Shown: positions 1 to 35,045 of the stretch, in pieces | Position numbering within the stretch: position 1 is the stretch's first letter | Layout: each line of letters opens with the position of its first letter | Assembly: GCF_902771435.1 (NCBI RefSeq) | Contig: NZ_CACXXB010000010.1 | Span: 1 to 64,000, forward strand | DNA: 64,000 bases | Direction: 5' to 3' | Source of the DNA: an uncultured Methanobrevibacter sp. | GTDB lineage: Archaea; Methanobacteriota; Methanobacteria; Methanobacteriales; Methanobacteriaceae | Translations under genes and position numbers: made by a program | Notes under the pieces: generated by a model | Told to the model about the DNA's origin: nothing | What the model saw: only the letters and a program-made list of their open reading frames with translations | The model's database searches: none

Positions 1-1010
1 ACAGTAATATTAGCAGGTCTAGTACCCCAAGCATTATTACCATCATTCCAAATCTTGGTCGCATTAACAACAGTAACCAAAGTGTTATTAACAGTCCAAT
101 TATAAGCAGTGCTATTACTAATCACACTTACATACTCAACAGAAATAACACCAGCAGGAACATTAGCAACAGTGACATTCAATTCCTCAATAGAATATTT
201 AATAGGATCATTACCATTAAATGCAGTCAAATTAGTAAACTCATGATACCAATTATTAGCCTCATTCAAAGTAGCATTAGCAACCCTGACACCATCAGCT
301 AATAAATAAACAGTAATATACGCAGGTCTAGTACCCCAAGCATTATCACCATCATTCCAAATCTTGGTAGCATTAACAACAGTAACCAAAGTGTTATTAA
401 CAGTCCAATTATAAGCAGTGCTATTACTAATCAAACTTACATAATCAACAGAAATAACACCAGCAGGAACATTAGTCATATTAACAGTGACATTATCTTC
501 TTCAATAGTATATTTGATTTTTTCAGTACCATTGAAGACTGTTAAATTAGTGAAGGAATGATACCAATTATTAGACCGATTCAAAGTAGCATTAGCAATC
601 CTAGTACCATCAGCTAATAAATAAACAGTAATATTAGCAGGTCTAGTATCCCAAGCATTATTACCATCATCCCAATATTTAGTAACATTTACACTAGTCA
701 TAGGAACATGAATGTTAGTAACAGTCACAAATGCAGTAGTTCCATTAGTACCATTAATTACAGTTAAGTAACCATCAATTGGCAATTCTCGAATTGTATA
801 ATTAATTACAGTATCATTTTCATCTGTAATATTTAAATTATCGAAAACATATGTCCAATTGTTAGTATCGTTTAAAACTACTTCACTTACTAAACCAGTG
901 TCATTATACAATTGAATAGTAACATTATCAGGTCTGATACCATCATAATCGTCATAATCATCCCAAACCTTAGTTACATTGATTTCGGATACATCATAGA
1001 TGATAATCCA
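1..1010 (-). repeat. Cna_B-like module repeats (about 290-315 bp)
   Basis: The DNA block gcaggtctagtacccca and close variants occur at about 14, 323, 638 and 927, giving spacings of 309, 315 and about 289 bp. Each unit encodes one roughly 100-residue Cna_B-type domain. The first two visible units are almost identical in sequence, and the array runs off the left edge. Cna_B domains are stalk modules of Gram-positive surface proteins and are also found in methanogen adhesins. Confidence 0.8.
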
Positions 1011-4000
1011 TGTCACGTTTGAAATCTCTGTGTAATAAGTAGTTCTAAGATAATTTGCATCGATTCTGTATCTTCCAACAGAATATCCTGTAAGATTTAA
1101 GCGTATACTACCTCTAATATCAGTTATATTGGAAGGATCTGGTTCTTCGCCAACACCGATTTTGGTTATAGTATAGAATATCTCTTGATTGTCTTCTAAA
1201 TCATCAAGATAAACAAGATTACCATCACCACTGTTTTCCCAGCCAATGACCGGAGTTTGGTCAATAGCGTCTGTTGTTTTGGTAGTTCGGTTACCATGAT
1301 TATAGAATTCATATGTAATATTATTTATAGTAACATTACTTTGAGCATCTTTACTATGGATACCGTTAGCGATATTGTCTCCACCTATATGCCAGATTTC
1401 TACAATTATCTCTTCACCTAAACGGTAAACTGTACCTTTTTTAGGAGATATTGGCAAGGCCCAAGAGTGTGCCAAGTTGTCATATAACCTTGTGTCATAT
1501 ACTTTCAAAGTAGAGTCTTCAACATAAATTGCGGATCCGTTTCCGAATTCTGCAGTATTGTTGTAGAAATTACCTTGAATGGTTGCATTGGCTGTACCTG
1601 ATATGATGAATGCACCACCAATACCATCACCATCACTGATGTATCCTAACGCATGATTGCTTATGAATGTTGAGTTTTCAACATCTAAATCGTTAGAAGA
1701 AATGATGTTTGCAAAACCACCTTTTAGCGCAGTGTTATTAAATGCATAGATTTGGTTAAAGTTTAAACTTTCATCTTCACTGTATATTGCACCACCAGAG
1801 AGGGTAGCACGATTTGATGAAATGTTGTTGCTTGTGAAATTAGTAATTTCATAATCATAACCATAACCATAAATAAATACTGCACCACCCATAGAGGTAG
1901 CTTTATTAAATGTAATGTTGTTATCGGTAAATTCTGAACTTGATCCGTCTATATAGATTGCACCACCGAAGTTAGCTTCATTATAGGACATTTGGTTGTC
2001 TGAAAATTCAGAGCCATGTCCGGCAATATAAACTCCACCACCGGATTCTGCATCATTATATAAAATGTCATTATTTGTAAATGTGGCATTATCACCTTCA
2101 ATATCTATTGCACCACCGGCCATAGCATGATTGTCTATGAAATCAGAATTGTTAACGGTAGCATTGATTCCGGAGATATATGTTGAACCACCGTAATATC
2201 CTGCAGTGTTGTTTGTGGATGTGACATTATCCAGAGATGTGAAATTACCATCAGTAAATATTGCACCACCATTTTCTTCAGCAATACAATTTGAAAGGCT
2301 TACATTTACAAACTTACAATCGTTACCATCAACATATACACCTCCACCAGTATAAGCGATATTATTGTTCAGGTTACAATTCATAATTGTAGTATTGTCA
2401 CCATTAATGTAAGATGAACCACCGTGATATGCAGAGTTGTGAATGGAAGTAACATTATCGAAAACATCGTTGTTACCTTCAACGTAAACAGCACCACCAA
2501 ATTGGGAAGCATTACAATTGGAAAGAGCCACGTTTTCAAAGGTACAGTTGTCACCAGAAACGTATAGTCCACCACCATTGTCAGTAGCACTATTATTGTC
2601 CAAGTTACAGTTCCTAACAATTACTTCATTACCCGCAATATATGAGGAACCACCTTCCACAGCAGTGTTGTGAATAGAAGTAACATTATCAAATAAGGCT
2701 TTATCACCTTCAACGTAAACAGCACCACCTAGAGTACCAGCCTCATTGTTGGATGCGCTAACGTTGATGATTTGAGAACCTATACCTCCACCAATGTTCA
2801 ATGCTCCACCACGTAATTCAGCAGAGTTATTGTCAAGGTTGGAATTTTTAACTGTTATGTTACTACCACGGATGAATGTAGAACCACCAAGATAAGCAGT
2901 GTTGTTGTTTGATGTAATACCATCGACAAGAATATTGTTACCAACAATATCGAATGCACCACCTAAACCAGTATTATTAGTTCCATTGTTGATAGCTTTG
3001 TTGTTGTTCAACTCACCGTTTCTAACGATAATGTTGGTACCGTTAATGAATGCAGCACCACCACGTTGAGCAGTGTTGTTATCAGCAGTAATATTAGTAA
3101 ATGTAGTACCATTTGAATTAACAAAAATACCACCACCTAGAGTACCAGCCCTATTGTTTGAAACACTAACGTTTTCAACAGTACAACCGTCACCAGCAAT
3201 GTTAATACCACCACCACGTAAATCAGCAGAGTTATTGTCCAAGTTACAATTTTGAACAGTTATATTATTACCACGGATGAATGTAGAACCACCAAGTCTA
3301 GCAGTGTTGTTGTTAGAGTGAGTACCATTTACAAGAATATTGTCACCAACAATATCGAACGCACCACCTAAACCAGTATTTTCAGATCCATTGTAAATAG
3401 CTTTGTTGTTGTTCAACTCACCGCCTGTAACGATAATATTGGTACCGTTAATGAAAGCAGCACCACCACGTTGAGCAGTGTTGTTATCAGCAATAACATT
3501 AGTCACGTTAGTACCATTTGAATTAACATAAATAGCACCACCCATAAGGCCTGCTCTATTGTTGGATACGCTAACATTTTCAACTGTACAACCGTCACCA
3601 GCAATGTTAATACCACCACCACGTAAATCAGCAGAGTTGTTGTCCAAGTTACAATTTTGAACAGTTATATTATTACCACGGATGAATGTAGAACCACCAC
3701 GATAAGCAGTGTTGTTGTTAGAGTGAGTACCATTTACAAGAATATTGTCACCAACAATATCGAACGCACCACCTAAACCGGTATTCTCAGATCCATTATA
3801 GATAGCTTTGTTGTTGTTCAACTCACCACCAGTAACTTTAATATTAGTACCGTTAATGAATGCAGCACCACCACGTTGAGCAGTGTTGTTATCAGCAGTA
3901 ACATTAATCATTATAGTACCGTCTGAATCTACATAAAGAGCACCACCCATTTGGCCTGCCCTATTGTTGGATACGTCAACGTTTTCAATAGTACATCTGT

Positions 4001-7000
4001 CACCTGCAACATTTATACCACCACCACGTAAATCAGCAGTGTTGTTGTCCAGAGTACAGTTTGCTATATAGGTGTCGTTACCACGAACGAATGTTGAACC
4101 TCCACGGTAAGCAGTGTTGTTTATGGAAGTAATGTTGATGAATTTACAGTCATTACCTAAAACGTCAATTGCACCACCAATACCGGTAGTTTCAGGTTCG
4201 CTTGCATTGAAAATAGCTACGTTATTGTCAAATACTGAATGTTCAATGGTAATATTGTTTCCTTCAACGAATACAGCACCTCCACGCAGAGCGGTGTTGT
4301 TAGTAGAATCAATTCCATGAAGGGATAAATCACTGGATTTAATGTATATTGCTCCACCTTCTTTGTCTGCACGGTTATTGGACACCTCAAGGTCATGAAC
4401 TTTACAGCCTGCACCAGCGAGGTCTAATCCTCCACCTCTACCAGATTCTTCAGTTCCATTGTAGATAGCTCTGTTATTGTCTAAAGTACAATTGGTAACT
4501 TCAGTATTGTTACCTATAATAAAAGTGGAACCTCCTCTGGCAGCAGTATTGTTAACGGATGTTACGTTTCTGAATGTAGCATCGTTACCTCTAACATATA
4601 CAGCACCACCTTCGGCACCTGCATTGTTGTCGGATACATCAACATTATAAACTGTACAGTTTTCACCTAAAATGTTCAAACCTCCACCACGGAGAGTAGC
4701 ATTGTTTCCATCAAAGATACAATCGTGAACAGTGATGTTGTCACCGTAAATGAATGTTGAACCACCAAGAGTAGCTGTGTTGTTGGTAGAGTTAATATAG
4801 TAAACATTTAAATTATTGGATTTGATGTATACTGCTCCACCTTCACCGCTAGCACGGTTATTGGACACTTCAAGAGTATTAACAGTACAGTTTGCACCAG
4901 CGAGGTCTAAACCTCCACCTCTACCGGAACCTTCAGTTCCATTGAAAATAGCTCTGTTATTGTCTAAAGTACAATTGATAACAGTAGTATGGTCTCCTTC
5001 AACAAAAGTGGAACCTCCTCTGGCAGCAGTATTGTTAATGGATGTTACGCGAGTAAATTTAGAATGGTCTCCTAAAACATATACAGCACCACCGTCGGTA
5101 CCTGCATTGTTGTCGGACACTTCTACATCATGCACATCACAATAGTCACCGTAAACGTTTAGACCACCACCACGAAGGGTAGCATTGTTTCCGTCAAAGA
5201 TACAATCGTGAACAGTGATGTTGTCACCGTAAATGAATGTTGAACCACCAAGAGTAGCTGTGTTGTTGGTAGAGTTAATATTGTAAATTTCTAAACCATC
5301 GGATTTGATGTATATTGCTCCACCTTCACCGCCAGCACGGTTATTGGACACTTCAAGGTCGTGAACTTCACAGTTTGCACCAGCGAGGTCCAGTGCACCA
5401 CCTCTACCGGAACCTTCAGTTCCATTGTAGATAGCTCTGTTATTGTCTAAAACACCATTTATAACTTTTGTATGGTCTCCTTCAACAAAAGTGGAACCTC
5501 CTCTGGAAGCTGTATTGTTAATGGATGTTACATCTTCGAATGATGCGTAGTGACCTCTAACATATACAGCACCACCGTCGGTACCTGCATTGTTGTTGGA
5601 CACTTCAACGTCTGTTGCGTTGAAATTGTTACCGTAAACGTCTAAACCTCCGCCTCTAAAGGTAGCGTTGTTATTGTCAAATGTTGAGTTTGTAACTTTT
5701 GTATTATTACCACGGATAAATCCGGCACCACCACGAGAAGCAGTGTTGTTGGTACAAGTAACAGTTAAAAGAGTACAATGGTCACCAATAACGTCAATAG
5801 CACCACCTACACCGGAGTCAGGATCTGCAGTGTTATTATTGAAGTTTGAATTGGCAATGTAGGTATTTTCACCTATAATATAAACTCCTGCACCATTGGT
5901 CGCAGTGTTATCTGTAAAGTTTGAATTGATAACTTTTGTATTTGGACCTTCGATGTATACTGTACCATTGACAGCAGAGTTACTACGTAAGGTTGAATTT
6001 TCAAAATGAGTGCCCCAACCATAAATGTAAACAGCACCACCATCATTTGAAGCATTATTGTTCTCAAAGACTGTATTGAAGACTTTGGTATCATTACCAT
6101 ACACATAAACAGCAGCTGCATTACCGCTTGCATTGAATGTCAAATCATCATCATGCTTCCAATACCATTCACCATTTTGATCTGGAATGTATTGACCATT
6201 TTCATATCTGTAAAGTGTTTGATTAGTATGTCCTCCATCCTCTACATTATGCCATCTGGCTATACAAAGTGAACTAGTTTGACCTTCAGTTTTTGCAACA
6301 TTATTTATAAAGTTACAATTGTCAAGTGTAATATTATTTCCTTGAGTATTAAGACCCCAGAATCCGTCATGGTCGGGGTCAATCCCACCAACCATAACAG
6401 CGGAACCTTGTCCACCAGTGTTATTGATGAAATCACAGTTTCTTATAATTACATTGTTATGACTTATTCCAAGTGCACCACCATATTCGCCTGTTCCTGT
6501 ACAATTAATAAACTTACAGTTATCAAGCACTTGAGGTCCTGAAATATAATAACCAGTCTCGGTGTAATTTCCATGTATATAGACTGCAAACCATCTAGAA
6601 GTAATATTGATAAAATTACAATCAATTAAACTACTTGCAACTTCTTGAGGACCACCACGATATTCGTCTGAAAGACAAAAAGCACCACCGTGATTAGCAG
6701 AGCTTGTATTAATAAAGTTACATCCAACCAGTTTGGCACCGAAGAGTACACCGAACTGACCGCTACCGTCATCAACACCATTATCACCAGGATAAGTTTG
6801 TTTACAGTTGGTGAAATTAACATTAGTCAGTGTTGTTGGCTGAGGATTACGAGCACCAGTAGAATCATAGGCACTTCCATATATGAAAAACATTTGCTGA
6901 TTTGTCTCAATATTATTAAAAACAACATTTGTCAAAGATCCGCTACAGAATTCAAACATTCTCCCGGAAGACTTTAAATTTTCAAAAGTAACGTCCACTA

Positions 7001-7772
7001 AATCATAACCATTAGCAGTAGTATATTTCCCGTTTTGTTGAGCGCCTCTGAAGTCAAATACATTTCCATCACCACCCACTTCAAATGTAGCAACTTGAGA
7101 TGGATCACTTTGACTTCCTCCAACAATCCTAACATTTTGAATAGTATGTCGCCCTGAAACAGTATGATAACTTCCAGTTCTATAGGTTCCACCATTTAGA
7201 TATATTACATCTCCAGGTTGAGCATTTATAATTGCATTAAATATATCATTTATTGTGTCACCAGTATGAAAATTATATGTAGCACCAAGAACCGGTTCAT
7301 CATTAACAGCAGCTAGCACAGAATCATCATTACTAGCACCAAGAACCTCTAAACCGTTCTCAGCACCAAAAAGAACTAAACCATCATTTTCTATTTCTAA
7401 ATTACTAGCACCAAGAATATCCAAGGTATTCCCAGCACTACTTACTTTTAAAACATTATTATCTCTATATATTTCAGAATCATTACTAGAACGCAATAAT
7501 TTTGTTCCATTATTAGTCAAACAATCGTCAGTTTTAATTTCATCTACTAATCCACCGGTTTTATCCGCTGAATTATCATTACTTTCATCTACAGAATTCA
7601 CATTAACATTGTTCAAATTAGCATCGATTGGATTTAGATCAGACATCGATAGCGATTCAAGTTCACCAGCATTTTGTTCGTATGTTCCAATTTCACTTGC
7701 AGCTGCAAATGAAAGCGAAAAAATCGTCAATAATAGTATTAAAGTTAAAAACATATGTCGCTTAAAACGCAT
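1..7772 (-). CDS. Giant adhesin-like surface protein, beta-helix plus Cna_B repeats (3' end beyond window)
   Basis: This is a secreted surface protein, probably used to contact host or microbial partners. The frame is open from position 7772 to the left edge (more than 2,590 residues), so the C-terminus is missing. The chosen ATG follows AAGGAG at a 7-nt spacing; an ATG two codons upstream lies too close to that site. Residues 1 to about 28 form a signal peptide (MRFKRHM, then a leucine-rich core ending in AAAS). From about residue 160 to 2090 there are right-handed beta-helix repeats rich in NNTA..GGA and N-glycosylation-type NxT/S motifs. The last 330 or so visible residues are four Cna_B-like modules (NVTKxWDD...RPxNITVYL...NWxxxFTNL...YTIEE). 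This matches the adhesin-like proteins of Methanobrevibacter. The ligand is unknown. Many small open frames on the opposite strand are composition shadows. Confidence 0.9.
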   Translation of the reverse strand, partial: MRFKRHMFLTLILLLTIFSLSFAAASEIGTYEQNAGELESLSMSDLNPIDANLNNVNVNSVDESNDNSADKTGGLVDEIKTDDCLTNNGTKLLRSSNDSEIYRDNNVLKVSSAGNTLDILGASNLEIENDGLVLFGAENGLEVLGASNDDSVLAAVNDEPVLGATYNFHTGDTINDIFNAIINAQPGDVIYLNGGTYRTGSYHTVSGRHTIQNVRIVGGSQSDPSQVATFEVGGDGNVFDFRGAQQNGKYTTANGYDLVDVTFENLKSSGRMFEFCSGSLTNVVFNNIETNQQMFFIYGSAYDSTGARNPQPTTLTNVNFTNCKQTYPGDNGVDDGSGQFGVLFGAKLVGCNFINTSSANHGGAFCLSDEYRGGPQEVASSLIDCNFINITSRWFAVYIHGNYTETGYYISGPQVLDNCKFINCTGTGEYGGALGISHNNVIIRNCDFINNTGGQGSAVMVGGIDPDHDGFWGLNTQGNNITLDNCNFINNVAKTEGQTSSLCIARWHNVEDGGHTNQTLYRYENGQYIPDQNGEWYWKHDDDLTFNASGNAAAVYVYGNDTKVFNTVFENNNASNDGGAVYIYGWGTHFENSTLRSNSAVNGTVYIEGPNTKVINSNFTDNTATNGAGVYIIGENTYIANSNFNNNTADPDSGVGGAIDVIGDHCTLLTVTCTNNTASRGGAGFIRGNNTKVTNSTFDNNNATFRGGGLDVYGNNFNATDVEVSNNNAGTDGGAVYVRGHYASFEDVTSINNTASRGGSTFVEGDHTKVINGVLDNNRAIYNGTEGSGRGGALDLAGANCEVHDLEVSNNRAGGEGGAIYIKSDGLEIYNINSTNNTATLGGSTFIYGDNITVHDCIFDGNNATLRGGGLNVYGDYCDVHDVEVSDNNAGTDGGAVYVLGDHSKFTRVTSINNTAARGGSTFVEGDHTTVINCTLDNNRAIFNGTEGSGRGGGLDLAGANCTVNTLEVSNNRASGEGGAVYIKSNNLNVYYINSTNNTATLGGSTFIYGDNITVHDCIFDGNNATLRGGGLNILGENCTVYNVDVSDNNAGAEGGAVYVRGNDATFRNVTSVNNTAARGGSTFIIGNNTEVTNCTLDNNRAIYNGTEESGRGGGLDLAGAGCKVHDLEVSNNRADKEGGAIYIKSSDLSLHGIDSTNNTALRGGAVFVEGNNITIEHSVFDNNVAIFNASEPETTGIGGAIDVLGNDCKFINITSINNTAYRGGSTFVRGNDTYIANCTLDNNTADLRGGGINVAGDRCTIENVDVSNNRAGQMGGALYVDSDGTIMINVTADNNTAQRGGAAFINGTNIKVTGGELNNNKAIYNGSENTGLGGAFDIVGDNILVNGTHSNNNTAYRGGSTFIRGNNITVQNCNLDNNSADLRGGGINIAGDGCTVENVSVSNNRAGLMGGAIYVNSNGTNVTNVIADNNTAQRGGAAFINGTNIIVTGGELNNNKAIYNGSENTGLGGAFDIVGDNILVNGTHSNNNTARLGGSTFIRGNNITVQNCNLDNNSADLRGGGINIAGDGCTVENVSVSNNRAGTLGGGIFVNSNGTTFTNITADNNTAQRGGAAFINGTNIIVRNGELNNNKAINNGTNNTGLGGAFDIVGNNILVDGITSNNNTAYLGGSTFIRGSNITVKNSNLDNNSAELRGGALNIGGGIGSQIINVSASNNEAGTLGGAVYVEGDKALFDNVTSIHNTAVEGGSSYIAGNEVIVRNCNLDNNSATDNGGGLYVSGDNCTFENVALSNCNASQFGGAVYVEGNNDVFDNVTSIHNSAYHGGSSYINGDNTTIMNCNLNNNIAYTGGGVYVDGNDCKFVNVSLSNCIAEENGGAIFTDGNFTSLDNVTSTNNTAGYYGGSTYISGINATVNNSDFIDNHAMAGGAIDIEGDNATFTNNDILYNDAESGGGVYIAGHGSEFSDNQMSYNEANFGGAIYIDGSSSEFTDNNITFNKATSMGGAVFIYGYGYDYEITNFTSNNISSNRATLSGGAIYSEDESLNFNQIYAFNNTALKGGFANIISSNDLDVENSTFISNHALGYISDGDGIGGAFIISGTANATIQGNFYNNTAEFGNGSAIYVEDSTLKVYDTRLYDNLAHSWALPISPKKGTVYRLGEEIIVEIWHIGGDNIANGIHSKDAQSNVTINNITYEFYNHGNRTTKTTDAIDQTPVIGWENSGDGNLVYLDDLEDNQEIFYTITKIGVGEEPDPSNITDIRGSIRLNLTGYSVGRYRIDANYLRTTYYTEISNVTWIIIYDVSEINVTKVWDDYDDYDGIRPDNVTIQLYNDTGLVSEVVLNDTNNWTYVFDNLNITDENDTVINYTIRELPIDGYLTVINGTNGTTAFVTVTNIHVPMTSVNVTKYWDDGNNAWDTRPANITVYLLADGTRIANATLNRSNNWYHSFTNLTVFNGTEKIKYTIEEDNVTVNMTNVPAGVISVDYVSLISNSTAYNWTVNNTLVTVVNATKIWNDGDNAWGTRPAYITVYLLADGVRVANATLNEANNWYHEFTNLTAFNGNDPIKYSIEELNVTVANVPAGVISVEYVSVISNSTAYNWTVNNTLVTVVNATKIWNDGNNAWGTRPANIT
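2806..4425 (-). repeat. 405-bp in-frame tandem repeats in the adhesin
   Basis: The same anchor (ccaccacgta followed by a/t-tcagcag) recurs at 2806, 3211, 3616 and 4021, an exact 405-bp period, or 135 codons. The units encode two to three beta-helix coils each (GGGINIAG..CTVENV.VSNNRAG and similar). The inner copies are nearly identical at DNA level, which points to recent duplication or gene conversion. The right boundary is approximate. Confidence 0.85.
4411..5859 (-). repeat. 483-bp in-frame tandem repeats in the adhesin
   Basis: The anchor gcaccagcga recurs at 4411, 4894 and 5377, an exact 483-bp period, or 161 codons. It adjoins the 405-bp array but has a different unit, with RGGGLDLAGA, GGSTFI.GDN and NRAIFNGTEGSGRGG blocks. 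Both arrays keep the reading frame, so copy number can change without breaking the protein. Outer limits are approximate. Confidence 0.85.
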
Positions 7773-7794
7773 AAACATACTCCTTTTTAAACAA

Positions 7795-10160: not shown

Positions 10161-10715
10161 TCAGTATTCATCAAACAATTCCCATATTTCAGGGTATTTT
10201 TTAGAGACGGCCTCATCGATTAAAGTAGATGCCTCTTTTGATATACTGAATTCAGGTTCGGTTTTACGCAAATATCTGAATACCGCAGATGACCTTGCAG
10301 ACCAAAGTGTAATCCTTGGATTCTTATCCACAATTTGTTTTACTTCCTCAACATGAGCAGGGTCTACTTGTATTTTTTGTGAAGTTTGTACGCTGTCTTC
10401 AGGGTTTTTATCGCCAGATATGACTTCGGATGTGACGCTGCTCTCTTCAACTCCTTCGTCTTGTGGTTCATCTGTTTTTTCTCCTTCTTCATTTTCATCT
10501 GAATCGGGAACAGGAGTATTTTCTTCTTCATTTTCTTCCTCTATCTCTTCGAATATATTTTTTTGTTCACTAGTAGACTTTTCTTCTTCAGGACCTTTTT
10601 CCTCAATATCATTCAATATATCTTCAAGAGATTGAGTAGAATTACTGTCAAAATCCTCATCATAAAAATTAGGAATTAAAGAATCCAGTCCTTTTCCAAG
10701 TCCTTTCCTTGGCAT
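10161..10715 (-). CDS. ParA-partner protein with ParB-type N-terminal box only
   Basis: This 184-residue protein is encoded directly after parA; the parA stop codon abuts its ATG, and GGAGG lies 6-7 nt upstream inside parA. Residues 1-14 (MPRKGLGKGLDSLI) match the short N-terminal box by which bacterial ParB/Spo0J proteins contact and stimulate ParA. The ParB CTPase/nuclease domain and the helix-turn-helix are absent. Residues about 25-105 are an acidic, low-complexity linker (D/E/S/T-rich). Residues about 118-184 form a compact, probably helical domain (FSISKEASTLIDEA, KKYPEIWELF) that I do not recognise. I infer a chromosome-segregation adaptor: a ParA-stimulating tail on a different DNA- or partner-binding module. 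It could instead be a regulator of ParA unrelated to DNA binding. Confidence 0.7.
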   Translation of the reverse strand: MPRKGLGKGLDSLIPNFYDEDFDSNSTQSLEDILNDIEEKGPEEEKSTSEQKNIFEEIEEENEEENTPVPDSDENEEGEKTDEPQDEGVEESSVTSEVISGDKNPEDSVQTSQKIQVDPAHVEEVKQIVDKNPRITLWSARSSAVFRYLRKTEPEFSISKEASTLIDEAVSKKYPEIWELFDEY

Positions 10716-11495
10716 TTACTGATCCTCCCCATCTCTTTTTAGAATCTCTTTAGCCAATTTAAGATAAGCTTTAGTTCCTGTACTGTCCGGATCATAAATC
10801 AGACAAGGTTTACCGAAACTTGGAGCCTCCGCCAAACGAATATTTCTTGGAATGACTGTTTTGAAAAGTAAATCAGTTTCTGAAAAATAACTTTTAAGTT
10901 CCTTGTAAACATCCTTACTGAGTCTTGTTCTCTTATCATAGAGTGTGAGGAGAATTCCTTTGATTGGAGTAGGGCTTCTGAGTCTTCTTTCTACCAATTT
11001 AATTGTATTGATCAAATCTGCTACACCTTCTAAGGCGTAATACTCAGCCTGGATAGGTATTAGAACACTATCCGAAGCTACTAATGCATTGACAGTAAGT
11101 ACGCCAAGGGAAGGAGGTAAATCTATGAATATATAATCAAATAATGGGACAACATCCTGAAGAGTTTCCTTCAAGATAATGTGATAATTTTCACGTTGAG
11201 AAAGCTCCATGCTGGCACCGCTAAGGGATATATTACTTGGGATAATAAACAAATTTTTAATAAACGTAGGAATTGTTGCTTTTTTTACACTTATATCCCC
11301 TATGATAGCCTCGTAGATAGAATTTTCCACTTTAGTCTTATCGATCCCAAAACTGGTTGTAGCATTAGCCTGAGGATCCATATCAACGACTAAAACAGAT
11401 TTTCCCATTACCGCTAGGGATGTTGCAGTATTTACAACAGTAGTTGTCTTACCACAGCCCCCTTTTTGATTCATCACCGCAATTACTTCACTCAT
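10716..11495 (-). CDS. parA: ParA/Soj-family chromosome partitioning ATPase
   Basis: This is a P-loop ATPase of the ParA/MinD superfamily that moves or positions DNA by ATP-driven dimerisation on the nucleoid. The deviant Walker A motif KGGCGKTT lies at residues 11-18, including the signature lysine K11. DMDPQANAT (Walker A') follows near residue 40 and FIDLPPSLG (Walker B) near residue 120. At 259 residues it is the usual length for chromosomal Soj, without the N-terminal DNA-binding extension of plasmid ParA. AGGAG precedes the ATG. It is co-transcribed with the ParB-box protein downstream. Its promoter lies inside an array of AAGTTAT boxes, which suggests autoregulation or a centromere next to the gene. 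The candidate origin is about 23 kb away. Confidence 0.9.
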   Translation of the reverse strand: MSEVIAVMNQKGGCGKTTTVVNTATSLAVMGKSVLVVDMDPQANATTSFGIDKTKVENSIYEAIIGDISVKKATIPTFIKNLFIIPSNISLSGASMELSQRENYHIILKETLQDVVPLFDYIFIDLPPSLGVLTVNALVASDSVLIPIQAEYYALEGVADLINTIKLVERRLRSPTPIKGILLTLYDKRTRLSKDVYKELKSYFSETDLLFKTVIPRNIRLAEAPSFGKPCLIYDPDSTGTKAYLKLAKEILKRDGEDQ

Positions 11496-11519
11496 TAGAA
11501 TTCTCCTATTATAAGTTTT

Positions 11520-11861
11520 AAGTTATCCGTTATGATTTATAACTTAAAAAGTTTCAGGTTTAAAGAATAACAACTAAGTTATCCAGTATAAGTTAAAAGG
11601 ATTAAGTTATTACTTGTAAATGAAAACTTAAAGGAAATAACTTATAAGTTCCAACTTCTAAGGGATAGGAATTAAGGTTTAAGTTAAAACTTTGAAGTTA
11701 TAAAAAATAAGTTTTAAGAAATAACTTATCATAACTAACTTTTAACAAATAAGTTATATTTTATAACTTCTTCCTTATAAAGTATTTGTTTTCACATATA
11801 ACTTAACACTTAAAAATTATTAGTTATAAGTTATAACAAAAAATAATAAGTTATAAGTTAT
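11520..11861. repeat. Array of 13 AAGTTAT boxes upstream of parA (candidate centromere/operator)
   Basis: The 398-bp gap between parA and trpB2 carries 13 exact copies of AAGTTAT or its complement. Plus-strand copies start at 11520, 11576, 11604, 11695, 11751, 11828, 11848 and 11855. Complement copies (ATAACTT) start at 11539, 11637, 11721, 11763 and 11798. Several near matches and the palindrome AACTTATAAGTT (11639-11650) are also present. Assuming about 80% AT, fewer than one copy would be expected by chance. Position and density resemble iteron-type par sites or operators. The binding protein is not known; the ParB-box protein is the obvious candidate. No gene is present in this gap. Confidence 0.7.
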
Positions 11862-11893
11862 AAGTAAAATGAAACAAAAAAAATAAAGAAGGA

Positions 11894-13195
11894 TTATTTA
11901 GCGTTTTGCATAGTTCCTTCAAAATAACTAGCATATCCTTTCAAGTCAAGCATTCCATGACCAGAGAAGTTTAAAACAATAGTCTTTTCTTCACCGGTTT
12001 GTTTGCATTTGATAGCTTCATCAATAGCAACTTTGATTGCATGTGTTGTTTCTGGAGCTGGTACAATACCCTGATTGCGTGCAAAGGTAATACCCGCATT
12101 GAAACAGTCCACTTGATGAGCTGATCTAGGCTCAATATAGCCTTCCTTGGTTAAAAGGGAAACGATAGGTGACATACCGTGATATCTTAAACCTCCTGCA
12201 TGAACGGAAGGAGCAACAAAATCGTGACCTAAGGTAAACATCTTAAGCATAGGGGTAAACTCATTGGTATCTCCAAAGTCATACTCATAGGAACCTTCTG
12301 TTAATGTTGGACATGCACTAGGCTCTACTGCAATAAACTGAGTATCTGAATTTCCGTCAATCTTATCCTTAATGAACGGGAACAGGGATCCTGCCAGGTT
12401 ACTACCACCGCCGGCACATGCAATCATTACGTCAGGTTCCTCTTCAGCAATTTCAAGCTGTGTCTTTAATTCCTGACCGATTACAGTCTGGTGAAGCATA
12501 ACGTGGTTTAAAACACTTCCCAAAGAATATTTGACGTTTTCATTTTCCAAAGCCTCTTCCATAGCTTCGGAAATTGCTACACCTAAAGAACCTGGATGGT
12601 CAGGAGTATCGGCTAATATTCCACGGCCGACCTTGGTGTTTTCACTAGGTGAAGCGAAGATTGTGCTGTCATAAATGTGCATGATGTTTTTCCTGTCAGG
12701 CTTTTGGTTGAAAGAGACCTTAACCATATAAACAGTACATTCAATGTCAAGGAGGTTACATGCCAAGGACAATGCTGTACCCCACTGGCCTGCTCCGGTT
12801 TCAGTGGTTAATCTTTCAACACCTTCCTTTTTGGCAAAATATGCCTGAGGAATAGCAGAGTTTAACTTATGAGAACCTGTAGGTGAGGAATCTTCCCTTT
12901 TGAAATAAATTTTAGCAGGAGTATTCAAATATTCCTCGAGCTTATTTGCCCTCACCAAAGGAGAAGGTCTTCCCATTTCCATATACAGTTCGCGAACTTC
13001 TTTTGGTATAGAAATATAGCGGTCAGTAGCAAATTCCTGTTCTAAGGCCGCTTTTGTAAAAGCCAATTGTAAAGAAGAAATCTGATCCTTGCCTTCACTG
13101 TTTTTAGGAGCCGGCAGTTCAACTGGTAAATCGGCAAGCATATTATACCATTGTTTCGGCACTTCGTCTGATGATAATTCAATTTTATAAGTCAT
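11894..13195 (-). CDS. trpB2: Tryptophan synthase beta chain, TrpB2 type
   Basis: This PLP enzyme condenses indole with serine to give tryptophan. It belongs to the TrpB2 branch (433 residues, longer than TrpB1), which usually acts outside the trp operon and without a tight TrpA partner, for example in indole salvage. The PLP lysine is K110 in GSHKLNSA. The phosphate-binding glycine loop GGGSN is at residues 262-266, and the N-terminal LPVELPAP and GRPSPL segments are typical of TrpB2. No trpA is nearby, which supports the salvage role. The divergent promoter region holds three TGTACA-type boxes, the TrpY operator of Methanothermobacter, so tryptophan-dependent repression is likely. Confidence 0.92.
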   Translation of the reverse strand: MTYKIELSSDEVPKQWYNMLADLPVELPAPKNSEGKDQISSLQLAFTKAALEQEFATDRYISIPKEVRELYMEMGRPSPLVRANKLEEYLNTPAKIYFKREDSSPTGSHKLNSAIPQAYFAKKEGVERLTTETGAGQWGTALSLACNLLDIECTVYMVKVSFNQKPDRKNIMHIYDSTIFASPSENTKVGRGILADTPDHPGSLGVAISEAMEEALENENVKYSLGSVLNHVMLHQTVIGQELKTQLEIAEEEPDVMIACAGGGSNLAGSLFPFIKDKIDGNSDTQFIAVEPSACPTLTEGSYEYDFGDTNEFTPMLKMFTLGHDFVAPSVHAGGLRYHGMSPIVSLLTKEGYIEPRSAHQVDCFNAGITFARNQGIVPAPETTHAIKVAIDEAIKCKQTGEEKTIVLNFSGHGMLDLKGYASYFEGTMQNAK

Positions 13196-21665: not shown

Positions 21666-21720
21666 TTTATTAATTATTTTTTTATAAGTTATTAGTTATA
21701 AGTTATAACTTATAAGTTAT
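21655..21720. repeat. Second AAGTTAT box cluster
   Basis: AAGTTAT occurs at 21686, 21700 and 21714, and ATAACTT at 21655 and 21705. The 21700-21720 segment consists of overlapping palindromes (AAGTTATAACTT and ATAACTTATAAGTTAT). It is the same box as upstream of parA, 10 kb away, in a short convergent gap. It may be a satellite par site. Confidence 0.6.
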
Positions 21721-32320: not shown

Positions 32321-33248
32321 AATTTTTAAACTGAAAAACATAATTTCAATAAAGGATTTTGAAAGAGAAGATATTGAATACATCTTGGATGAAGCATCAA
32401 AACTGGAAGACGTTGCCAAATCAAAAGAAATATCTGAGGAATTGAAGGGTAAGCTACTTGGTTTGATGTTTTTTGAACCTTCAACAAGAACAAAAATATC
32501 ATTTGAAACTGCAATGAAGCGTTTGGGAGGAGAATGCATAGGATTTGAAAACAGCGGATCAAGTTCTGTTTCCAAAGGTGAAAGTATTGCAGATACTGCA
32601 AAAATGTTTGAAGGCTATAGTGACGCTTTGGTAATCAGGCATGAGCTTGAAGGCGTATCCAAATTCATTTCTGATATTGTTGATGTTCCCGTTATTAATG
32701 CCGGTGACGGTGCAGGCCAGCACCCTACACAGACATTGCTTGATTTATACACAATCAAAAAAGAGATTGGTGATATTGACAATTTAAAAATAGCTTTAAT
32801 AGGTGATTTGAAATTTGGCCGTACCGTGCACTCACTGTCAAATGCATTAGGATTATTCAATAATGTTAAAATTTATCTTGTGTCTCCTCCTGAGCTCAAA
32901 ATGCCTCAGGAAGTTCTCCATGACATCAACAAAACCAACATTACCTGGCAGGAAGTCGATTCCATTGAAAAAATTATCGATGACGTTGATGTGCTGTATG
33001 TAACAAGAATCCAAAAAGAGCGCTTTGGAGATATTAATGATTATTTAAAAATAAAAGGTGCTTATATCGTGAACAAAAAAATGCTTGAAGGCAAGGATTT
33101 GATTGTAATGCATCCCTTACCTAGAATTGATGAAATCGCCACTGATGTCGATAACACAAAATACAACAAATACTTCACTCAGGCAGCAAATGCCGTTCCT
33201 GTAAGAATGGCAATCTTAAAAACATTAATAAAAAACAACCCTAAATAG
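32313..33248 (+). CDS. pyrB: Aspartate carbamoyltransferase catalytic subunit
   Basis: PyrB makes carbamoyl aspartate for pyrimidine synthesis. The 311 residues show [13 protein letters not shown] (STRT at 57-60, carbamoyl phosphate site), [16 protein letters not shown] near 130 and [11 protein letters not shown] near 270. ATCase rather than ornithine transferase is indicated by HPLPR and FGRTVHSL. The start is a TTG overlapping the flavodoxin stop; no other good start exists nearby. The regulatory subunit PyrI is not adjacent. The 3' end overlaps cdc6 tail-to-tail by 8 bp. Confidence 0.92.
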
Positions 33249-33263
33249 TGTAAAGGGTTGTTT
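33233..33263. terminator. Bidirectional hairpin between pyrB and orc1/cdc6
   Basis: AAACAACCCT (33233-33242) and AGGGTTGTTT (33254-33263) form a perfect 10-bp stem with an 11-nt loop over the overlapping stop codons. It is symmetrical, so it can serve both convergent genes. Confidence 0.55.
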
Positions 33264-34413
33264 CAAGTAATGTTTCATCACATTGAAGCTTGATAATATT
33301 TGTTCTTCCTTTTCCACGACCGCGTGAAATTGTGTTAGTTGAAATTATACCCAATAATTCAAGTTCATTGATAAAGTCAAAGATTCTTCTGTAGGTTACT
33401 GCATCCTTTTTTGAGATTTCCTTGTACTCATCATATAATTTTCCGGAAGATATCTCTTCACCCTGTTTTGTTAAGTTTAAGATAGCTTCTAAAACCCTTT
33501 GCTGTTGTAGTGGTAATGTGGAAATAATTTCAATGACTTTGTTGTGTTCAATAGTATCTTTAGCTTTTCTTACATGTTCACTGGTAACCTTTTCTGATTC
33601 TTCATCAAAGGCCAGTTCACCTGCACTTTTAAGTAAATCAAGAGCGTATCTAGCATCACCCTCTTCTTTTGCAGCCATTGCGGAGCATAATGGAATTACA
33701 TCATCATCCAAAACGCCTTCCTTGAAGGACAATTCTGCCCTTTCAGAGAGGATATCAGACAACTGATCTGCACCATAAGGAGGGAAAACAATCTCTTTAT
33801 CATTTAAACTGCTTTTTACTCTGGCCTTAATCAGATTCTTAAAGTCCAAATAATTACTGATACATAAAACAGAAACATTGTCAGTTCTGGTTAATGTGTA
33901 TAATATTCCGTCACCGTCCTTGTCAAGCAATATGTCGATTTCGTCCAAAATAACAATCAGCTGCAGCTTTTTGCCGTAGGTATTTCTTAATCTGAAGGTA
34001 TCTCTAAATGTATTTACAACTTCAGCCTTGGTCCATCCACGATTAGGAACTGTACGTCCAAGCCTGTTACAAATTTCGGCAATTACCTGATATTCTGTAG
34101 TAAAATCAGTGCATCTGATATGTTCAACCTTTACAAAAACTTTCTTCTTATTTGCAATTTCAATCAGCTGTTCACGGGCAAACTTAGATGCGGCAGTTTT
34201 ACCGGTTCCTGTTTTTCCATAAAGAGTAACATTTGAAGGGGTTACATCGCTTAATACATCAACCCAATATCTAGCAATCTGTTTTATTTGATCTTCACGG
34301 TGAACTAATTTATCAGGTAAATATCTGTGATCTAAGGGTTCTTTATCTTTAAATATGCTTGCAGATGAAAGTTTATCCCAGTCATTTTCCAATTCTTCAA
34401 AAACATTTGACAT
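33241..34413 (-). CDS. cdc6: Orc1/Cdc6 replication initiator
   Basis: This AAA+ initiator binds origin recognition boxes and loads the MCM helicase. In 390 residues it has Walker A GKTGTGKT at 66-73, Walker [11 protein letters not shown] with DEID at 157-160, and sensor 1 near [10 protein letters not shown]-terminal winged helix lies at residues about 300-390 ([28 protein letters not shown]). ATG 34413 with GGTGG 5 nt upstream is preferred to the GTG at 34425. The gene lies immediately beside a 0.6-kb gap full of TTTCAAGTGTA boxes, the usual arrangement for an archaeal initiator and its own origin. Confidence 0.94.
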
Positions 34414-34439
34414 TATAGCCACCACATAAATTTAATAAA

Positions 34440-35045
34440 AAATTAATTAGTATAATTTCCAGTGTTAATAATATTTTGTACCTAATAAATAAAGGTTTTT
34501 ATTACTATTTTAGAAAAAGTTAATAAAAATGGATGAAACTCGAAAAATAAAACTTCTTAAAATTATTAAAAATCAAAATAAATACCATAAAATCAATATT
34601 TAATTATTTAAACAAATTTAAATATATATTTTCAAAATAAACCTTTTTAAATCAATTTAAATTTAAAATATGAAATAAGACTATTTCCAATATAAAATAA
34701 CAATTTCAAGTGTAAAAATCAGGAAAAAAGGATAAAAATAAGCCCTCAGATGGCTTGAATAAGACAATTTTTGAAAAAATTATCATGATTTATAATCCAG
34801 ACAGAGAGGTCCGTTTCAAGTGTATATAATTTCATGCGAAAAGCAAAATTGAAGACATGTATTTCAAGTGTAACGAAAATGGAAATTAAAGATGAAAGTG
34901 TAAAATCATATTAAAAACATTATTTACATACTCAAATCGCAAAAACAAAGAAAAATAAGAGAGATAAATTTCAAGTGTTTACAGTTGAAATATACCCCTT
35001 CAGTCTTAATATACCTTCGTAAACGTTTCAGTTGAAATGCACCTC
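34440..35045. other. Candidate chromosomal replication origin (oriC) with ORB repeats
   Basis: The gap between cdc6 and the DUF2299 gene holds no gene but many copies of the Methanobacteriales ORB core (TTTACACTTGAAA or its complement). TTTCAAGTGTAAA is exact at 34704-34716. Others are TTTCAAGTGTA at 34814-34824, TTTCAAGTGTAA at 34862-34873, TTTCAAGTGTTT at 34969-34980 and TTTACAGTTGAAA at 34978-34990. Weaker sites are TTTCAGTTGAAA at 35026-35037, TTTCCAGTGTTAA near 34457 and TGAAAGTGTAAA near 34893. Two boxes carry a G-rich arm (GAGAGGTCC before 34814; the inverted GAGAGG arm after 35037), so full-length ORBs face each other. A very AT-rich stretch, 34540-34690, is the likely unwinding element. 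Confidence 0.88.

Follow-up and report, generated by a model that had tools for sequence, protein, structure and literature searches.

A SegAB operon of Methanobrevibacter and an upstream array of 7-bp repeats that most likely acts as a centromere

The window analyzed here is the whole of a 64,000-nucleotide stretch of DNA from an uncultured Methanobrevibacter sp., a rumen-type methanogen (contig NZ_CACXXB010000010.1, positions 1 to 64,000). On its minus strand lies a ParA-type gene, segA (10716..11495), which encodes a deviant Walker ATPase of 259 amino acids that carries the motif NQKGGCGKTTT and matches the Pfam model AAA_31 with an E-value of 5.3e-63; it is 82-92% identical to its counterparts in close relatives and 51-61% identical to those in distant ones. 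This gene is followed with zero gap by segB (10161..10715, minus strand), whose product of 184 amino acids begins MPRKGLGKGLDSLIP, and the same adjacency is present in relatives. The positions of both genes and the ParA-type identity of the first agree with a preliminary description of this DNA. Upstream of segA and on the same strand, a gene at 11894-13195 encodes a TrpB-like pyridoxal-phosphate enzyme (TIGR01415, E = 1.2e-198), and the gap between the two is filled by an array of short repeats. The open reading frame at 3-7778 (minus strand), 2592 amino acids or longer, runs off the window and possibly encodes a large surface protein.

The product of segB had been taken for a non-canonical ParB remnant. 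Its lack of ParB domains was borne out: no ParB family model in Pfam or NCBIfam matched it, the ParB/Srx CTPase domain and the helix-turn-helix of bacterial ParB were both absent, and membership in the ParB family was ruled out on these grounds. When the single sequence was searched against the PDB, only one family gave a significant match, and this was Sulfolobus SegB (residues approximately 101-181; 7dv2, E = 6.7e-5, and 7duv, E = 1e-4). A profile built from 11 relatives matched the same protein with E-values of 5.8e-12 (7duv) and 1.1e-9 (7dv2). Because the C-terminal 70 residues match the solved DNA-binding domain of Sulfolobus SegB, the operon is assigned as segAB, and the order of the genes, with the ParA-type gene directly followed by segB, is that of SegAB systems. 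By homology, then, the partner of the ParA-type gene is not a remnant of ParB and is instead assigned as SegB, the known archaeal centromere-binding protein.

The first 14 residues of SegB, MPRKGLGKGLDSLI (10674..10715, minus strand), form a ParB-like, putative SegA-contact box, the presence of which had been claimed before. The core of the box reads GLGKGLDSLI in Methanobrevibacter; other families have GLGMGLDALI or SLGKGLDALI, and a genome from another phylum has RLGRGLEALL. The pattern LGxG(L/I) is present in 76 of 77 named SegB open reading frames, and L6, G7, G9, L10 and L13 are invariant among 42 SegB sequences; judged by these comparisons, the GLGKGLDSLI box is a conserved feature of SegB throughout Methanobacteriota. 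The ParB motif has been described as aliphatic residues around a central positive charge (PMC12462528), and the box appears to fit this description, the likeness to ParB being one of motif resemblance. A tblastn search of plasmids with the N-terminal 21-mer, which is a very short query, gave no match. The box is followed by an acidic linker (residues 15-114; 10374..10673, minus strand) with 37 D/E versus 6 K/R. Methanobrevibacter has a long linker, and the short SegB proteins (approximately 95-120 amino acids) of Methanobacteriales outgroups have almost none. The length of SegB shows a loose positive trend with the number of boxes (Spearman 0.29, uncorrected for phylogeny).

Residues 115-184 (10164..10373, minus strand) make up a predicted ribbon-helix-helix DNA-binding domain. 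The preliminary description had noted the acidic middle and a small helical domain at the C-terminus, and had left the latter unplaced; from its homology it can now be placed as the ribbon-helix-helix domain of SegB. AlphaFold2 modeled the 70-residue domain with a pLDDT of 80.5 as helix, helix, an extended PEFSIS segment, helix and helix, in which PEFSIS (residues 154-159) is the predicted strand and is left unassigned in the monomer model. In a Foldseek comparison of this model with 350,542 PDB chains, the best three matches were all SegB and were weak (E = 0.6-1.3). The model of the full-length protein had low confidence and no PDB match, as a disordered acidic linker would lead one to expect. 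According to PMC9178275, Sulfolobus SegB belongs to the ribbon-helix-helix proteins, and with DNA it forms a left-handed superhelix that resembles the one formed by the omega protein of pSM19035.

Within 11520-11861 there are exactly 13 exact AAGTTAT/ATAACTT boxes, compared with a mean of 0.54 and a maximum of 4 in 1000 local dinucleotide shuffles. The 13 copies reported earlier are thus real; they are not separate sites, however, and belong to one continuous heptad array. This main array (11512..11840) consists of 47 consecutive 7-bp slots in a single phase, with centers that run from 11515 to 11837 and the consensus TAA(G/C)TTA (TAASTTA). In the window, 20 of the 23 AASTT cores share one 7-bp phase (bound approximately 1e-13), and degenerate heptads that keep this phase occupy the slots between the exact boxes. 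Against TAASTTA, the slots that lack an exact core scored 3.03 in phase and 1.2-1.8 out of phase; because they resemble the consensus in phase only, the array is read as a single continuous run of heptads. The array ends at 11841..11867, after a 1-bp phase slip (AAGTTATAAGTTATAAGT). The arrangement contains what is expected of an omega-type centromere, namely at least four contiguous 7-bp repeats in mixed orientation.

The gap that holds the array is 80% A+T, as would be expected if the repeats were functionless low-complexity sequence or a product of replication slippage. This explanation is highly improbable. The G+C content is 70% at the slot centers and 4-17% at the remaining six positions, so that the central G/C is kept while the others stay A/T; the two box orientations are mixed, unlike those of a slippage product; the 7-bp phasing is conserved across loci; and the extra sites described below are intergenic and clustered. 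A chance low-complexity origin was ruled out by the shuffles, the phasing and the conservation.

Boxes upstream of parA in related species, the absence of which would have counted against the preliminary description, are present. At segA in approximately 30 relatives of the genus, 555 of 603 neighboring box spacings (92%) are multiples of 7, as are 876 of 999 at 67 named loci, a set that overlaps the first in species. Shorter arrays of 3-5 heptads are found at the segA promoter in most other Methanobacteriales (outgroup families), and Methanosphaera has two or three heptads there. The proposal that the operon has its own centromere-like site is strengthened by this conserved phasing. A wider search for homologs gave a SegB match in 90 of 96 phylum genomes. 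Those that lack one are mostly drafts in which segA is not matched either, so that the joint loss of SegB and array says little. A Methanobrevibacter-like segAB with its array also occurs on contig JAFRZY010000007.1 (L098), which is labeled 'Bacilli bacterium' and is probably a mis-binned contig of a metagenome-assembled genome.

A second heptad site in the window (21685..21719) consists of five contiguous heptads in the intergenic space between convergent genes, and scored 31.7 bits versus at most 13.8 in random sequences. A small site recurs between the main array and cdc6-1 in relatives (G010, 389302; G014, 11769). The orc1/cdc6-1 gene, which marks the origin, lies at 33241..34425 on the minus strand (TIGR02928, E = 3.8e-121; Pfam Cdc6_lid and Cdc6_C), and is accompanied by four exact and one near copy of the ORB-like repeat ACACTTGAAA at 34704..34990. 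From the gene and the repeats together, oriC is predicted at approximately 34.4-35.0 kb, about 23 kb from the main array, which is in keeping with the earlier placement of a segregation operon near the origin. The 7-bp phasing, the in-phase degenerate slots, the second site and the distance to the origin go beyond what had been described before. The ORB core was not found inside the array, the exact copies being confined to 34704-34978, and no heptads were found at the window's oriC, where the ORBs stand alone. The possibility that the array consists of ORB or origin repeats was ruled out, as the ORBs are a different motif located 23 kb away.

Complete genomes were scanned with a 3-heptad pattern, which matched at few places only. 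In G047 (Methanothermobacter-like, 1.75 Mb), all nine matches fell in five clusters 9-84 kb from cdc6-1, at 1286.9, 1294.9, 1318.0, 1337.2 and 1362.1 kb; these clusters scored 28-36 bits versus approximately 18 for random or distant sequence, and one weaker site (21.9 bits) lies 25 kb away on the opposite side. G046 and G048 agree with G047, to which they are close kin and not independent. The main array of Methanobrevibacter lies approximately 21-24 kb from cdc6-1, and the extra heptad sites that were examined are intergenic in all cases but one. These extra sites cluster mostly near oriC or cdc6. There are departures from this pattern: segAB is approximately 300 kb from cdc6-1 in G038, some sites in G103 and G105 are hundreds of kb from cdc6-1 (two of the G105 sites being 20-50 kb from cdc6-2), and G028 has a single stray site at mid-chromosome. 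In G111 (Methanobacteriaceae), zero AASTT 3-heptad sites were found at the stringency used.

The genome G049 (Methanothermus-like, 1.24 Mb) separates SegB from the promoter array. Its SegB has nearly the same strand, GFSISKEAS, and its segA promoter has no heptad box; if SegB reads heptads, then its sites must be elsewhere. Of the 19 heptad matches in this genome, 17 fall in six clusters at 1073-1137 kb (within 63 kb), compared with 0 for the reversed control. The G+C skew in G049 gave an ambiguous origin position. These sites bear on the suggestion that the array is an operator only, at which SegB would repress segAB without any centromere role. The array is directly upstream of segA and overlaps the segA promoter region in the outgroups, and for the Sulfolobus sites, too, a role as operators has been left open in a Trends review (PMC5120986). 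Such a restricted role is nevertheless unlikely for the array, as approximately 47 heptads over 330 bp are far beyond the needs of an operator, sites away from segAB exist (such as 21685-21719 between convergent genes), and the G049 sites are absent at segA and present elsewhere.

Another phylum, that of G055, carries SegB in only 2 of 60 genomes. G142 is the only one of those 60 genomes with more than two heptad matches (18 versus 1 in the control), and it also carries SegB. All 18 matches are on the C2 replicon (163915 bp), which bears the segB-like gene; a repeat period of 7 gave 11 clusters spread over this replicon, and other periods gave 0-2. The segB-like gene adjoins an AAA_22 ATPase gene rather than a ParA gene, and heptad-like repeats lie upstream of the ATPase gene (L217-L225). 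In G055, where SegB is present, AASTT 3-heptad sites were not found, and its segA promoter sequence TAACTTATCACTTATCAGTGA may represent diverged heptads. The lack of sites in G055 and G111 indicates that the heptad sequence or the array length drifts. Overall, heptad arrays co-occur with SegB, which gives comparative support for a link between the two.

In five of the six G049 heptad sites, an ORB was found at a nearly fixed distance. The modules are located on G049:C1 at 1073608, 1075255, 1080657, 1092041, 1098011 and 1136444 (L194-L197), and one of the six is without an ORB. Five dispersed intergenic modules lie within 25 kb, each with approximately five heptads and ATTACACTTGAAATTTACC, at approximately 110-170 kb from cdc6-1. 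Heptads and an ORB are also joined in composite units, TAAGTTATAAGTGAAAAGTTACACTTGAAATGCACCTCTCGAG. Four of these units stand in tandem, approximately 53 bp apart, in the window's own genome (G000:C35:15330-15530, L178), 4.5 kb from cdc6-2, and two copies are found in G010 (C1:603419-603525, L179), 3.5 kb from cdc6-2. It is possible that the TAAGTTATAAGTGAAAAGTTACACTTGAAATGCACCTCTCGAG units near cdc6-2 mark a second origin.

The heptads might be bound by a protein other than SegB, as the sites are near oriC and adjoin ORB repeats both in G049 and close to some of the cdc6-2 genes; Orc1/Cdc6, a nucleoid protein and a regulator as yet unknown are candidates. We regard binding by another protein as improbable: the ORB ACACTTGAAA differs in sequence and has no heptads beside it at the window's oriC, the arrays track SegB across two phyla, and a centromere protein of the ribbon-helix-helix type is known to bind at just this 7-bp pitch (PMC9499535). 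SegB itself is the binder that we favor, with one dimer probably bound to each heptad.

The system shares with Sulfolobus/Saccharolobus SegAB a ParA-type SegA, a SegB encoded directly downstream with a homologous C-terminal domain, sites that lie upstream of segA and also at other chromosomal positions, and a central S flanked by an inverted repeat, which is TCTAGA-S-TCTAGA with the core AGASTCT in Sulfolobus (PMC12284271). It differs in that the heptad is TAASTTA and in that the N-terminus of SegB bears a box like that of ParB, followed in Methanobrevibacter by a long acidic linker. Furthermore, single sites predominate in Sulfolobus, where 84% are intragenic, while the sites of the methanogens are contiguous intergenic arrays, mostly near one origin. 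A search of the window and of 400 kb of G047 (1.1-1.5 Mb) that allowed up to 2 mismatches gave no copy of the Sulfolobus motif TCTAGASTCTAGA. The paper that describes this motif expects other sites in Euryarchaeota, and the Sulfolobus-type site is therefore considered to be variable and not family-defining. As TCTAGASTCTAGA holds a 7-bp TCTAGA repeat along with the S-centered AGASTCT core, a 7-bp pitch could be an ancestral trait of SegB, according to our own reading of the published motif.

Similarities to the delta-omega system of pSM19035 include a ParA-type ATPase, a centromere protein of ribbon-helix-helix type whose flexible N-terminal tail activates ParA (here predicted), and contiguous 7-bp heptads in either orientation that overlap the par promoters; the delta-omega parS consists of 7-10 WATCACW heptads. 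The present system is chromosomal and archaeal, with a different heptad sequence and up to approximately 47 contiguous heptads. The likeness between omega and SegB is that of a shared fold class, as stated in PMC9178275. Bacterial ParABS likewise has a ParA-type ATPase, a similar-looking N-terminal ParA-contact motif and several sites near the origin, but the ParB CTPase domain, the helix-turn-helix and the 16-bp parS are absent here.

Taken together, we think it likely that this locus is a SegAB chromosome-segregation module in which SegB binds the heptads, one dimer each, the boxes stimulate SegA, and movement is coupled to the origin. The ribbon-helix-helix domain of SegB dimers would bind the array with one dimer per 7-bp TAASTTA slot, and adjacent dimers would form a continuous nucleoprotein filament of up to approximately 47 dimers upstream of segA, with shorter filaments at other, mostly origin-proximal sites. 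The flexible tail of SegB would present the GLGKGLDSLI box, contact nucleoid-bound SegA-ATP and stimulate hydrolysis, and the array-bound complex would be tethered and moved along with the origin region. In terms of precedent, omega/ParB of pSM19035 binds with one dimer per 7-bp heptad and requires at least four contiguous heptads for full ParA activation (PMC9499535), and PMC11229316 reports that SegA is stimulated by the N-terminal domain of Sulfolobus SegB. Activation of SegA by the box, the role in segregation and autoregulation are inferred; autoregulation of segAB by SegB is probable, since the array also spans the upstream region of segA. The block of approximately 47 heptads most likely acts as a centromere.

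The occurrence of SegAB in euryarchaea is known and is the context in which a 2016 review takes up Methanothermobacter thermautotrophicus, a diploid organism (PMC5120986); the system is therefore not categorically new. A 2025 study of SegAB found no convincing euryarchaeal site and expected sites of a different sequence (PMC12284271). As far as the open literature shows, the following are new, although a prior description is possible: the heptad site, the great length that the arrays reach in Methanobrevibacter, the map of sites close to the origin, and the modules that combine an ORB with heptads. More tentatively, the centromere of Methanobacteriota may consist of SegB filaments on heptad arrays that are fused in some lineages to an Orc1 binding box, a generalization that we hold as doubtful; if the reading of these fusions is true, replication initiation would be coupled to segregation at one DNA element.

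The proposed TAASTTA site at a 7-bp pitch bears on how chromosomes are segregated in euryarchaea and on the DNA target of SegB. This site, the sites mapped around oriC in complete genomes and the separable parts of the protein make the target of SegB directly testable. Archaeal SegB, the heptad centromeres of plasmids and the ParA-activating tail of ParB type, which are usually described apart, are joined here.
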